A stretch of DNA of 64,000 nt, from assembly GCF_003290185.1 (NCBI RefSeq), contig NZ_QNFY01000005.1, positions 248,001-312,000 of the forward strand, read 5' to 3'. This stretch comes from Chryseobacterium lathyri. GTDB taxonomy: Bacteria; Bacteroidota; Bacteroidia; Flavobacteriales; Weeksellaceae. A model generated the notes under the pieces. It was not told the DNA's origin and did not search any database. It saw only the letters and a program-made list of their open reading frames with translations. Shown here one piece after another: positions 15,100 to 33,679 of the stretch (the first letter of the stretch is position 1; every line of letters begins with the position of its first letter). The position numbers and the translations under genes were made by a program.

Positions 15100-15129
15100 T
15101 TGCAGAATCAAAAAATAGTCGTAATTTTG
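15100..15129 (+). promoter_or_regulatory. consensus Bacteroidota promoter of rpsO
   Basis: TTG at 15100-15102, 19 bases, then TAATTTTG at 15122-15129, an exact match to TTG-N19-TAnnTTTG. The rpsO ATG lies 35 bases past the -7 box. Confidence 0.8.
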
Positions 15130-15164
15130 CACCCGTTACATAATAATCATTAAACAATATTGGA

Positions 15165-15434
15165 ATGTACTTAACAACAGAAAAAAAAGCAGAAATTTTC
15201 GCAAAACATGGAAAATCTGCACAGGACACAGGAAGTGCTGAAGGACAAGTAGCTCTTTTCACTTTCAGAATCAACCACTTATCTCAGCACCTAAAAGCTA
15301 ACCGTCACGATTTCAATACAGAGAGATCTCTAGTGAAATTGGTAGGTAAAAGAAAAAGCTTATTGGATTATCTTAAGAAAAAAGATATTACAAGATACAG
15401 AGCTATCATTGCTGAACTAGGTTTAAGAAAATAA
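15165..15434 (+). CDS. rpsO: 30S ribosomal protein S15
   Basis: Primary 16S rRNA-binding protein of the small-subunit central domain. It is 89 residues, the family's normal length. It shows the signature FRINHLSQHLKANRHDFNTERSLVKLVGKRKSLLDYLKK (residues 29-67), in which the H, D and basic residues contact the rRNA three-way junction. It ends RAIIAELGLRK. The gene has its own consensus promoter and terminator. In many bacteria rpsO is followed directly by pnp; here the pnp gene is 2.4 kb away with two opposite-strand genes between. Confidence 0.98.
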   Translation: MYLTTEKKAEIFAKHGKSAQDTGSAEGQVALFTFRINHLSQHLKANRHDFNTERSLVKLVGKRKSLLDYLKKKDITRYRAIIAELGLRK

Positions 15435-27108: not shown

Positions 27109-27987
<879 letters not shown>

Positions 27988-28441: not shown

Positions 28442-29461
28442 TCAGTTTTCATCCGGAATTATTAAATCTTCATAGTTTTTTAATCCTGCTTTAAATTTAT
28501 CTTGCAGCTTCAGTCTCAGTTTTTTAGGTTGATGGACCACCAGACATTCTCCAAAACCCAACAGAAGCCTTTCAAGTTCAAAATTAATTTGTACACAGAT
28601 CTTAAATAATGTGCCATCCTCCGTTTCGCTTATAATTTCCTGACTTCTATGAAGCGGTTTTGTTTTTACATAAGGCGCATTGGAAGAATCTACAAAGAAA
28701 ACAACATTTCTGGGAGCCATCGTATCGGAAACTGTAACCCCTACAATATCTTTAAAATATTCATCGCCGTCCAGATCTTTGTCGATATACTGTATGCCTT
28801 CCTCCACATCAATCTTTTCCATTCTATCCAGGGCTAAATTGTACATTTTACCTTTATATTGACAGATCAGGAACCACCTGTTATTAAACTCCTTCAGAAG
28901 TTGCGGATGAACCACATAATTGCTGGATTCCCTGGCTGTAAAGCTGCGGTACAGAATATTCAGTACCTTTTTGTTGGATATGCTTTCATAAAGGACATCA
29001 ATATATTCTAGCCCTTTCAGCTGTTCATTTTTATCCAGATGAATGATGGATTTTTGTCCGGTAGAATGGATGGAATCCTCCAGCTTCTGAATGACTCCGT
29101 TCATCTCTTTGAACATAGAAAAATCCTTAAACTGTTTCAGGATCTGAACCGCATTATTCATCGCTTTCAGGTCGCTTTCATTCACAGAAATATTATGGAT
29201 GCTGTACTCAGGATCGCTGTAGCGGTAGTATTTTCTATCGTATACTTCAATAGGTGCTTCATACCCGAATTTTTCACTTCGCATATTCTGCAGATCCAGC
29301 TGGACGGTACGTCTGCTTACATAAGATTCCTTTCCTTCAAACTCGAACAGGGCATCAGAGCAGGCATCGATAAGGTCTTCAAGTGTATATTTCCGGTATT
29401 TGTTCTTAAGACATTTGTCTAATGTTTTGTAGCGGATCAGGGCATTTTTATTGGATGACAT
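28442..29461 (-). CDS. WYL-domain transcriptional regulator
   Basis: 339 residues from ATG 29461 (MSSNKNALIRYKTLDKCLKN). The N-terminal segment with YTLEDLIDACSDALFEFEG and VSRRTVQLDLQNMRSEKFGY is a winged helix; the WYL domain follows from ~160 (ISNKKVLNILYRSFTARESSNYVVHPQLLKEFNNRWFLICQ), where the RWFL segment replaces the W-Y-L tripeptide. WYL domains bind nucleic-acid-derived ligands and control several defence and RNA-repair loci. Given its position between RlaP genes and rtcB, it is the best candidate regulator of the island, analogous in place, not sequence, to proteobacterial RtcR. Confidence 0.9.
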   Translation of the reverse strand: MSSNKNALIRYKTLDKCLKNKYRKYTLEDLIDACSDALFEFEGKESYVSRRTVQLDLQNMRSEKFGYEAPIEVYDRKYYRYSDPEYSIHNISVNESDLKAMNNAVQILKQFKDFSMFKEMNGVIQKLEDSIHSTGQKSIIHLDKNEQLKGLEYIDVLYESISNKKVLNILYRSFTARESSNYVVHPQLLKEFNNRWFLICQYKGKMYNLALDRMEKIDVEEGIQYIDKDLDGDEYFKDIVGVTVSDTMAPRNVVFFVDSSNAPYVKTKPLHRSQEIISETEDGTLFKICVQINFELERLLLGFGECLVVHQPKKLRLKLQDKFKAGLKNYEDLIIPDEN

Positions 29462-29475
29462 TTTTTGTGATTTTT

Positions 29476-29646
29476 TATAGAGAGAGTGAAAAGGTGAATG
29501 GTGAAAGGTCAATTTTTGCTTCGCAATTCAATTTTTAATGTGTCAATTCTTTTTTTCAAACTAATCATTCACTTGCAAGGTAAAATTGACCATTGACTTA
29601 TAAAATGATTCACTTGCGAAGCAAAATTCACAATTGACCCGTATAA
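29476..29646. repeat. long inverted repeat of the GTGAAT/TTGCTTCGCAA word family
   Basis: The arm around 29490-29527 (AAAGGTCAATT then TTTGCTTCGCAA) is answered at 29610-29640 by TTGCGAAGCAAA then ATTCACAATTGACC. The words are the same as those of the 102-bp repeat at 13952-14438. It lies between the WYL gene and the HopJ gene, both on the minus strand. Non-coding. Confidence 0.7.
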
Positions 29647-30007: not shown

Positions 30008-31495
<1,488 letters not shown>

Positions 31496-31512: not shown

Positions 31513-31545
31513 AAACCTTATAGGTTTTCAAAACCTATAAGGTTT
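31513..31545. repeat. perfect palindromic hairpin of the AAACCTTATAGG family
   Basis: AAACCTTATAGGTTTT, then one C, then AAAACCTATAAGGTTT, a perfect 16-bp stem. It lies 17 bases past the rtcB stop and could act as a terminator or processing stem. Related hairpins lie at 31562, 33757 and 50887. Confidence 0.75.
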
Positions 31546-31616: not shown

Positions 31617-31728
31617 GGGGCAGTAGCTCAGATGGTAGAGCAACAAAAATTACTTTTCGCTGCAGGCACATAAAGTTCCTATAAATCACCAGGTTTGTGG
31701 GTCACAGGTTCGAGTCCTGTCTGCTCCT
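31617..31728 (+). ncRNA. tRNA-like RNA with a 46-nt anticodon loop, next to rtcB
   Basis: The cloverleaf is complete: acceptor GGGGCAG (31617-31623) pairs with CTGCTCC (31721-31727), including a G3-U70 pair. D arm is GCTC-AGATGGTA-GAGC (31626-31641). Anticodon stem ACAAA (31643-31647) pairs with TTTGT (31694-31698). Variable loop is GGGTC. T arm is ACAGG-TTCGAGT-CCTGT (31704-31720). Between the anticodon-stem strands lie 46 bases (31648-31693) instead of 7, containing an inner stem ACTTT/AAAGT and the words AATTACTT and AGTTCCTATA, which recur downstream. Position 73 is T; CCA is not encoded. No normal anticodon can be assigned. I interpret it as a functional tRNA mimic, comparable in idea to Y-RNA tRNA-like modules near rtcB in enterobacteria; a disrupted tRNA gene is the alternative. 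Confidence 0.8.
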
Positions 31729-31747
31729 CAAAATAAAAAATAAGGCA

Positions 31748-31873
31748 AAGAAAGTTCCTATAAGTTAGAATTACTTTCCGCCTTTTTACAAATTATAAGG
31801 CAAAGGGAGTTCCTATATTTTCGGTAAATTACTTCCCGCTTTTTATAAACTATAGGTAAAAGGAGTTCCTATA
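31748..31873 (+). repeat. repeat array sharing sequence with the tRNA-like loop
   Basis: The core AGTTCCTATA occurs at 31674-31683 (inside the tRNA-like loop), 31753-31762, 31808-31817 and 31864-31873. AATTACTTYYCGC occurs at 31648 (loop), 31769 and 31827. Units are about 55-58 bases. GAAAGT (31750) pairs with ACTTTC (31772), while in the next unit GGGAGT (31805) faces ACTTCCC (31831), so changes on one arm are matched on the other, as expected for conserved RNA stems. The array fills the space between the tRNA-like RNA and the TerD-like gene. Confidence 0.75.
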
Positions 31874-31924
31874 CACTTCACTTTTAATGAACCTACTCCT
31901 CACTTATTTTTAAAATTAAAAACA

Positions 31925-33679
31925 ATGAAAACACTAAAATTATTCAATGCAGTATTAGCTAAGGAATCGAATGCAGAGCCATTTGTTTCTAATGACGGTT
32001 TTATCATTGAACCTGATGCTTTATGGGCAAAAAATGAGATCATCTCTTATTATGCAAAGGAAAAATTAAATGGAAATGATTTGAATAAAACCTTTCATAA
32101 ATCCTGGGAGAAAATAAAAAATACCTCCAGAATTGATTTGTTTTTTGAACAGATTCAACATTATATTTCAACATATGGAAGCGATTTCCAGAATGAAATC
32201 TATATTCCTGCTGAAATACTGAATGTTCCGGATATGAAGCTGGTTTTTAAAGTAATCAAAGCCTATACTGCAGAAGAGATGCAGGAAAAGTGCCTTTCTC
32301 TTTTGAGATCAGGGATTGCTTTAAAAGAAGAAACTATTGATGAATTGCTTTATATTTTACATACAGAGCTGGAATATGATTTTACGGGAAAAGAAAACAT
32401 CAGAAATAAGGAAGCTGTTATAAAAATAGCTGATCTGTACGATATCTATCCTGAAAATCCTGTTGAGTTTTTCCGTTATGTTATTTATAAAACGACCAAT
32501 ACTACGCTTTTAATTAAAAGTGATGATCTGATTGATTCAATCAAGCAAAGTAAGTTTAACCCAACCTATTTGTTTGAAAGCTTCGGGCTGGAAAAACTGG
32601 CGGAAATTTTTAACAGGTTCAAGCCGTTATTTCTTGCCTATAAAAACAGAGCTCCGAAAGCCATCAATAAAATTTCGAAGCTGTCTAAAGTACATCATAA
32701 ACCATTGATTTCAAATCCTTTGAATGATGCTACGAATACATTGCTCGAAAACAGTGATTGGCACTGGCTGGAAAATGCAACACCGTTTGCACTATTCAAA
32801 GCATTGTCAGCATGCTATTCTAGAATGTATGGCCAGGATACTTTTGTGTACAGAGTCCGAAACGGAAAATCCTGGGTGAAAAAAGGTAAGGAAACTTATG
32901 TGAATCAATTCAACTATGATTTTATTCTGGATTATCTGAAACTGAAATATGATAACTTATCCGGAAAGAAATTCTATTTCCCGGAGAATGTAGAATTTGC
33001 ATTACCCACTTCTGAAAAAATGTTTGTTGGAAATATTCCTACCGGAACCCGTTTTTATGGCGACAGACTGGCTGTAGGTATTTATTGGGAAGATCGATGG
33101 GGTGCCCGTGACCTTGATCTTTCAGGATTAAATATCTCCGGAAAAATAGGTTGGAATGCCGCTTATAATCATGGTGACGGACAATTGATGTATTCAGGAG
33201 ATATGACTTCAGCTCCTAACGGTGCCGTTGAATATCTTTATGCCAATAAAGGACTGTGTACTCCAACACTTGTTATGAATAATGTTTTCAGCGGAAATGC
33301 AGATTGCGGATATAAAATCGTTATCGGAAAAGGAGATAACATTTCCTACGATTATATGATGAATCCTAACAATCTCTTTGCTGAAGCCAGATGTAACTCT
33401 GTTCAGAAGCAAATGATTCTGGGAATGCTGGTGGCAAAAAACGAAAAGCAATGTTTCGTACTGTTGAATTTCGGAGCCGGACATTCTCATGTTTCAGGAA
33501 ATAATCAGGTTTCCATGATGGCAACAACTGCATTGTATCAGCAATGGTACGAAGCCATGTCTTTCAATGAGCTTGTAAAAGAGCTTGGAGCAGAGATTAC
33601 AACAGAAAAAGCGGAAGCCGACTTCGATTTCTCACTGGAAACGCTTGAAAAAGACAGCTTCATAAAGATTTTTAAGTAG
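31925..33679 (+). CDS. large protein with helical N-terminus and C-terminal TerD-like segment (MXAN_6230/SCO0854-like)
   Basis: 584 residues, soluble, no signal peptide. The N-terminal ~270 residues are helical and repeat-like (for example NPVEFFRYVIYKTTNTTLLI at 179-198, LAEIFNRFKPLFLAYKNR near 225-242). The C-terminal part from ~380 resembles TerD-type domains: AVGIYWEDRWGARDLDLSGL (383-402) then YSGDMTSAPNGAVEYLY (423-439), the pattern I associate with MXAN_6230/SCO0854-family proteins. TerD domains bind calcium and occur in stress and conflict systems. The gene lies behind rtcB, the tRNA-like RNA and its repeats, so an RNA-linked role is plausible. I see no vWA MIDAS that would make it Ro60. 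Domain assignment is from memory of motifs. Confidence 0.7.
   Translation: MKTLKLFNAVLAKESNAEPFVSNDGFIIEPDALWAKNEIISYYAKEKLNGNDLNKTFHKSWEKIKNTSRIDLFFEQIQHYISTYGSDFQNEIYIPAEILNVPDMKLVFKVIKAYTAEEMQEKCLSLLRSGIALKEETIDELLYILHTELEYDFTGKENIRNKEAVIKIADLYDIYPENPVEFFRYVIYKTTNTTLLIKSDDLIDSIKQSKFNPTYLFESFGLEKLAEIFNRFKPLFLAYKNRAPKAINKISKLSKVHHKPLISNPLNDATNTLLENSDWHWLENATPFALFKALSACYSRMYGQDTFVYRVRNGKSWVKKGKETYVNQFNYDFILDYLKLKYDNLSGKKFYFPENVEFALPTSEKMFVGNIPTGTRFYGDRLAVGIYWEDRWGARDLDLSGLNISGKIGWNAAYNHGDGQLMYSGDMTSAPNGAVEYLYANKGLCTPTLVMNNVFSGNADCGYKIVIGKGDNISYDYMMNPNNLFAEARCNSVQKQMILGMLVAKNEKQCFVLLNFGAGHSHVSGNNQVSMMATTALYQQWYEAMSFNELVKELGAEITTEKAEADFDFSLETLEKDSFIKIFK

Follow-up and report, generated by a model that had tools for sequence, protein, structure and literature searches.

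In the sections of the literature cited here, bacterial Y RNAs consist of a protein-binding stem and a module with the D, T and acceptor arms of a tRNA, and some of them are encoded beside RNA-repair genes (PMC8394870, PMC7790460). For YrlA the same sources describe a stem that holds Rsr and a tRNA-like domain that serves as the effector module (PMC8394870, PMC7790460). The Rfam alignment of YrlA (RF02553) places the T arm before the D arm, and YrlA can be read as a tRNA that has been opened at its anticodon end.

Here we analysed a 64,000-nucleotide stretch of DNA (the window) from a 4.86-Mb genome whose closest relatives are Chryseobacterium, in which a tRNA-like RNA lies between rtcB and the gene for a 584-residue protein (p584). 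Like YrlA, this window RNA combines a two-helix stem with a module carrying D, T and acceptor arms, supporting the comparison with Y RNAs made in the original prediction. However, the predicted ends of the window RNA lie at its acceptor stem and its putative protein stem is closed within the anticodon loop, whereas YrlA ends in its protein-binding stem; by its predicted ends, the window RNA does not terminate in such a stem. Because YrlA has its T arm ahead of its D arm, YrlA and the window RNA resemble circular permutations of a single plan. By analogy, the window RNA likely works like a Y RNA, and we do not claim that it is one. The Rfam YrlA model found no match in the window and, against its curated score of 69 bits, gave sub-threshold matches only, namely 28.4 bits across two tRNA-likes in Tenacibaculum and 17.6 bits in a control of tandem ordinary tRNAs. 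A second likeness is to tmRNA, which also has a tRNA acceptor and T arm and no usable anticodon loop, but the Rfam tmRNA model has no match in the window. Among the literature matches listed there was no such RNA with a TerD-type protein; an earlier account may exist, particularly for the Ro60-linked tRNA-like presented below.

A cloverleaf with an enlarged anticodon loop

The Rfam tRNA model detects the 112-nt element on the forward strand at 50.4 bits (gathering score 29; E 7.8e-08 over the whole window), with a 46-nt insert where the anticodon loop is expected (Table 1). ARAGORN makes no tRNA call at these positions. The acceptor stem (GGGGCAG/CUGCUCC), anticodon stem (ACAAA/UUUGU), D and T arms, G3-U70 pair, U at position 73 and an inner stem of the loop (ACUUU/AAAGU) were all found as originally predicted, confirming a complete cloverleaf with a large, internally paired anticodon loop. 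Folded alone, the RNA has a minimum-energy structure of -34.9 kcal/mol (z -2.67) that contains the acceptor, D, T and insert stems and swaps the anticodon stem for another hairpin. Among 55 relatives this alternative hairpin is paired in 364 of 478 cells, compared with 94.1% for the anticodon stem of the cloverleaf, which is therefore the better supported of the two. Elsewhere in the window, Rfam reports an ordinary S15-Flavobacteria ribosomal protein leader (15122-15167, 50.9 bits).

Table 1. Features of the rtcB-p584 region, in window coordinates.
Feature	Position	Strand	Description
RlaP, RNA-repair polymerase-beta-family protein	27109..27859	-	Pfam RlaP 7.8e-68; start taken as the ATG at 27859
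Second exact operator-like copy	27893..27911	+	Upstream of RlaP
WYL/WCX regulator	28442..29512	-	Between the two operator sites; Pfam WYL 2.6e-10, WCX 3.7e-09
Operator-like site TGCGCA-N7-TGCGCA	30055..30073	+	Upstream of rtcB; 46 nt from site start to rtcB ATG
rtcB, RNA ligase	30101..31495	+	464 aa from ATG; Pfam RtcB 6.2e-35
tRNA-like RNA	31617..31728	+	Rfam tRNA 50.4 bits; covariation in 55 relatives
Acceptor stem	31617-31623/31721-31727		Part of tRNA-like RNA
D arm	31626-31642		Part of tRNA-like RNA
Anticodon stem	31643-31647/31694-31698		Part of tRNA-like RNA
T arm	31704-31720		Part of tRNA-like RNA
U73	31728		Part of tRNA-like RNA
Permuted two-helix insert	31652..31682	+	Inside the 46-nt anticodon loop (31648-31693)
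Insert pairs	31652-31656/31672-31676; 31659-31660/31666-31667		ACUUU with AAAGU; GC with GC
Conserved UCCUAU	31677-31682	+	In the insert
Hairpin 1	31742..31784	+	AAGGC-AAA-GAAAGU-UCCUAUA ... ACUUUC-C-GCCUU; direct repeat families D1, D2, D5, D6; strands pair across relatives
Hairpin 2	31797..31842	+	Hairpin 1 motif with GGGAGU inner stem; repeats and pairing in relatives
Hairpin 3	31852..31907	+	Hairpin 1 motif with AGGAGU/ACUCCU inner stem
p584, likely protein partner	31925..33679	+	584 aa; N-terminal part helical; C-terminal domain (residues 378-532) with predicted TerD fold

To follow the fold across relatives, 80 distinct tRNA-like sequences were taken from the fetched loci, 78 of the p584 type and two from upstream of Ro60. 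The alignment holds 55 of the 78 p584-type sequences; an RNA whose T arm is interrupted (L072) and a degenerate one (L078) were left out. Within this alignment 98.8% of 1484 cells are paired, and compensatory (two-sided) changes occur in 12 of the 27 pairs, affecting the acceptor stem (6/7), the anticodon stem (4/4), the insert stem (1/5) and the T stem (1/5). None of 500 shuffles reached any of the five measures, and pairing fell to 33-49% when the partner strand was slid along. As judged from these substitutions the cloverleaf is under compensatory selection, in agreement with the selection for tRNA shape that had been proposed. A decaying tRNA pseudogene with an acquired repeat might account for the interrupted and degenerate loci, but it is contradicted by the pairing counts, by the compensatory changes in the acceptor and anticodon stems and by the retention of the RNA in 79 of 94 p584 genomes, and we rate it as very improbable.

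A decoding tRNA was also considered and is not supported: across the 55 relatives the whole anticodon loop spans 34-56 nt, and in none of them was a 7-nt loop with a conserved anticodon found. Recognition by AlaRS through G3-U70, an element of the original prediction, did not withstand comparison, as the pair is GU in only 32 of the 55 relatives; position 73 is U in 40, A in 13 and G in two.

In other domains of life RtcB ligates the exons of tRNAs, and with rtcB adjoining, the RNA could be a tRNA with an intron, its loop being cut out and the ends sealed by RtcB, as had been suggested. Beyond the 4-bp anticodon stem, however, the insert is flanked by 2-11 nt on one side and 7-20 nt on the other, leaving neither a constant exon junction nor, given the range of loop lengths, a fixed boundary that would restore a 7-nt loop. 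Position 73 varies, the same insert is found on at least three different scaffolds, and the presence of the RNA follows p584 and not rtcB (see below), all of which make excision and resealing very improbable.

The loop insert and the leader hairpins

Three hairpins separate the RNA from p584, the last of them stopping 17 nt short of the p584 start codon. Their common motif is an outer helix, an internal loop AAA(R)/(Y)C, an inner helix ending GU/AC, and then UCCUAUA. The tRNA loop contains the hairpin strands in the opposite order (ACUUU-UC-GC-loop-GC-ACAU-AAAGU-UCCUAU), with 19 of 21 positions of the 5' strand and 12 of 15 positions of the 3' strand identical to hairpin 1; both strand matches were reached by none of 20000 dinucleotide shuffles of the loop. 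On the strength of these matches, the anticodon-loop insert is a copy, in circularly permuted form, of the hairpins that lie ahead of p584. The original prediction was right about the inner ACUUU/AAAGU stem, but had missed its relationship to the leader hairpins. Within its own genome, exact matches to the hairpin signature GGYAAARRRAGTTCCTATA are confined to the three hairpins; the tRNA insert departs from it at two positions, a level equalled at five places elsewhere, which is no more than with a reversed control pattern.

p584 is preceded by two or three hairpins. From 261 candidate free hairpins, eight without the 3' motif were dropped to leave 253, the 3' motif having been chosen regardless of pairing. 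Among the 46 distinct stems, 37 are fully paired at three variable inner positions and nine are not, compared with a mean of 27.9 and a maximum of 33 in 1000 shuffles. The two helices of the insert are paired in 99.6% and 99.1% of cells in the 55 relatives. In architecture, the insert and the free hairpins fit the two-helix, internal-loop plan of the protein-binding stem of Y RNAs, with protein binding putative.

The location of the hairpins between the tRNA-like RNA and the start of p584, their retention at loci that lack the tRNA-like RNA, and the restriction of their exact signature to these three genomic sites would all suit cis-regulation, in which the tRNA-like RNA and hairpins are leader elements bound by p584, or by a tRNA-binding enzyme, to control p584 expression. 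Yet complete acceptor, T and D arms with compensatory changes in the acceptor stem are more than a binding site requires, and at Ro60 loci the tRNA-like RNA comes first, right behind the operator, as expected of a released RNA. We consider regulation in cis a rather unlikely explanation of the whole element.

As predicted, the RNA resembles a tRNA mimic in an RNA-repair neighbourhood, with genes for RtcB and RlaP nearby. Encoded with these enzymes, it might act as bait, its large loop being cut by anticodon nucleases instead of real tRNAs, or its cleavage might signal damage; a competitive-inhibitor role has been proposed for the tRNA-like domain of YrlA in the text cited (PMC7790460). Against this, no anticodon-like 7-nt loop is conserved, the conserved part of the loop is a stem shared with hairpins that lack a tRNA body, and the nuclease examined in the work cited left YrlA uncut (PMC7790460). 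A role as decoy is improbable on this evidence.

The RNA accompanies p584

p584 belongs to no Pfam or NCBIfam family above threshold, and no clear fold match was found for its helical part. In contrast to the Ro60/Rsr partner of YrlA, it does not match TROVE: no such domain was found by sequence, and the hhalign profile probability was 0.1. The window RNA begins 121 nt after the rtcB stop codon and lies 196 nt ahead of p584.

A p584 match was found in 94 of 148 genomes of the genus (partial and broken copies included) and rtcB in 145 of 148. Defined as a copy of 97-114 nt scoring at least 73.8 bits with a covariance model of the RNA, the full-length RNA is present in 79 of the 94 p584-bearing genomes and in none of the remaining 54 (Fisher p 6e-27, ignoring the relatedness of the genomes). 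The next class among the hits listed, at about 64-75 bits, proved where inspected to be ordinary tRNA-Lys or tRNA-likes of the Ro60 and p746 classes described below. The covariance-model search envisaged in the original prediction did recover the RNA from 79 of 148 genus genomes, but the proposed partnership with rtcB was not borne out: the RNA tracks p584, not rtcB.

No TROVE match is detectable in 10 of the 79 RNA-bearing genomes, the source genome included, and the partner of the RNA there is therefore not a recognisable Ro60. Fifteen of the 94 p584 genomes lack the RNA, some of them keeping the hairpins (L010, L014, L071, L080 and L089), so either the RNA can be dispensed with or the hairpins are enough by themselves. 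The interrupted and degenerate RNAs of L072 and L078 both lie beside intact hairpins, an indication that the RNA can be lost. Within the genus, rtcB is found 100-800 nt upstream of p584 in 89 of 90 loci analysed; at the remaining one (L051, genome G096) it is 380 nt upstream by coordinates.

Outside the genus p584 is rare: two of the 395 other genomes of the order have it, and so do five of the 378 in the Tenacibaculum family. Tenacibaculum (L161, L159) has a pair of tRNA-likes, built on different scaffolds, upstream of p584, and three further genera of that family have one each (L232, L233, L234); Kordia (L141) has hairpins only. The rtcB gene is downstream of p584 in L141, L233 and L234, was not found in the flank examined at L159, L161 and L232, and at L133 is represented only by a distant homolog, 31% identical, 3.3 kb upstream. 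Because other genera keep the RNA before p584 while rtcB moves, a partnership with rtcB itself is unsupported. The Rfam tRNA model, applied at its gathering score, accepts the L232 and L234 RNAs as well as one of the two in L159, and misses that of L233. At all six p584 loci analysed outside Chryseobacterium (L161, L159, L141, L232, L233 and L234), a T-arm-shaped apical loop (GGTTCGANTCC) sits on a free hairpin without the rest of a tRNA.

Related RNAs upstream of Ro60 and p746

A Ro60 protein of 458 aa (TROVE 2.4e-11, VWA weak) is encoded in 13 of 148 genus genomes. Twelve of these loci were fetched and 11 analysed, one with a stop in the gene (L203) being left out. All 11 have a tRNA-like RNA and a free hairpin directly upstream of the Ro60 gene. 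These RNAs are 127-133 nt long (11312-11443 in L126 and 12274-12405 in L142, with the class also in L192-L202), and each has 7/7 acceptor and 5/5 T-stem pairs; the Rfam tRNA model scored three of six at E <= 0.1. They carry a large anticodon-loop insert, about 69 nt in L126, within which the strands of the Ro60 hairpin recur, by eye, in swapped order. These loci resemble the window locus in the series of operator, tRNA-like RNA with a strand-swapped insert, free hairpin and protein gene, but differ in the sequence of the insert and in the protein (TROVE plus weak VWA). No tRNA-like RNA was found at 30 loci of a second, commoner Ro60 type of about 505 aa, using a strict pattern and 1.5-kb flanks.

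The third protein, p746, has a zinc-finger-like start and, by eye, a TerD-like end; it matches Prok-RING_4 at 3e-4, under the curated cut-off. It follows rtcB in one of 148 genus genomes and was found in four of 295 genomes of the class. Upstream of p746 there are tRNA-likes in L214 (2503-2610), L221 (two), L222 and L223, and hairpins only in L224; some hairpins at these five loci have T-arm-shaped loops. The RNAs of L222 and L223 and one of L221 were scored by the Rfam tRNA model, while that of L214 and the other of L221 gave sub-threshold tmRNA scores of 30.3 and 28.7 against 47 bits.

Taken together, the three classes raise the possibility that a tRNA is a general mounting frame for RNA-repair ribonucleoproteins. 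At least three families (Ro60, TerD-type p584 and RING/TerD-like p746) would each have a two-helix stem of their own, both free and strand-swapped inside a tRNA anticodon loop, with the Ro60-Y RNA as one branch of a broader class that can also have partners other than Ro60. We advance this generalization tentatively, at slightly less than even odds.

A proposed Y-RNA-like scaffold for p584

Our preferred reading, drawn by analogy and given a probability of about 0.5, is that the window RNA is a Y-RNA-like scaffold, with p584 holding its stem and the tRNA body docking tRNA-handling enzymes. The RNA would be transcribed with rtcB, from the rtcB promoter, and released by tRNA end-processing. p584 would bind the two-helix motif, which has an AAAR/YC internal loop and an inner helix ending GU/AC followed by UCCUAU, the tRNA body may dock RtcB, RlaP or an exonuclease, and the resulting particle could route broken tRNAs into repair or decay. 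Through the linked hairpins of its leader, p584 might in addition regulate itself. Set against the scaffold are the leader position of the hairpins, which fits regulation in cis equally well, the single two-sided pair of the insert stem, the nine of 46 free-hairpin stems that do not pair fully, the 15 p584 genomes without the RNA, the lack of a TROVE match or a clear fold match for p584 and of a YrlA match for the RNA, and the failure of the Rfam tRNA model to detect some relatives that read as cloverleaves.

The accounts cited above present bacterial Y RNAs as Ro60/Rsr partners; if the scaffold reading is true, the Y RNA design would extend to a protein family not recognisable as Ro60. If p584 and p746 are both ribonucleoprotein components with tRNA-mounted RNAs of their own, then the common element is the tRNA body and not Ro60, and comparing what docks on that body across the three protein families would reveal its purpose. 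The permuted stem predicts that p584 binds hairpin and insert alike.

An operator-like site shared by RNA-repair genes

Two RlaP-family genes and a WYL regulator lie upstream of the rtcB region. The pattern TRCGCA-N7-TGCGYA has only two exact matches in the 4.86-Mb genome, one upstream of rtcB and the other upstream of RlaP. With up to one mismatch allowed the window again contains two sites, a number reached in none of 100 shuffles. In 34 of the 49 named p584 loci that include an rtcB start, the operator begins 43-46 nt upstream; Kordia has it at 126 nt, 12 have a site with one mismatch and two have none.

At Ro60 loci the operator precedes the tRNA-like RNA itself, beginning 49-53 nt before it in 11 of 11 cases. 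It is also upstream of the tRNA-likes in L159, L161, L214, L221, L222, L223, L232 and L234, and was not found before the tRNA-like RNA in L233 or at the hairpin-only p746 locus L224. From this distribution of sites, the operator appears to mark an RNA-repair regulon common to rtcB, RlaP and a class of Ro60 loci, for which the WYL protein is a candidate regulator. With only two operator sites in the genome, the regulon and its inducer can be identified readily.

Behind rtcB there is in addition a perfect 16-bp palindrome (window 31513-31545), a candidate terminator or REP-like element, and similar palindromes follow rtcB in several relatives.
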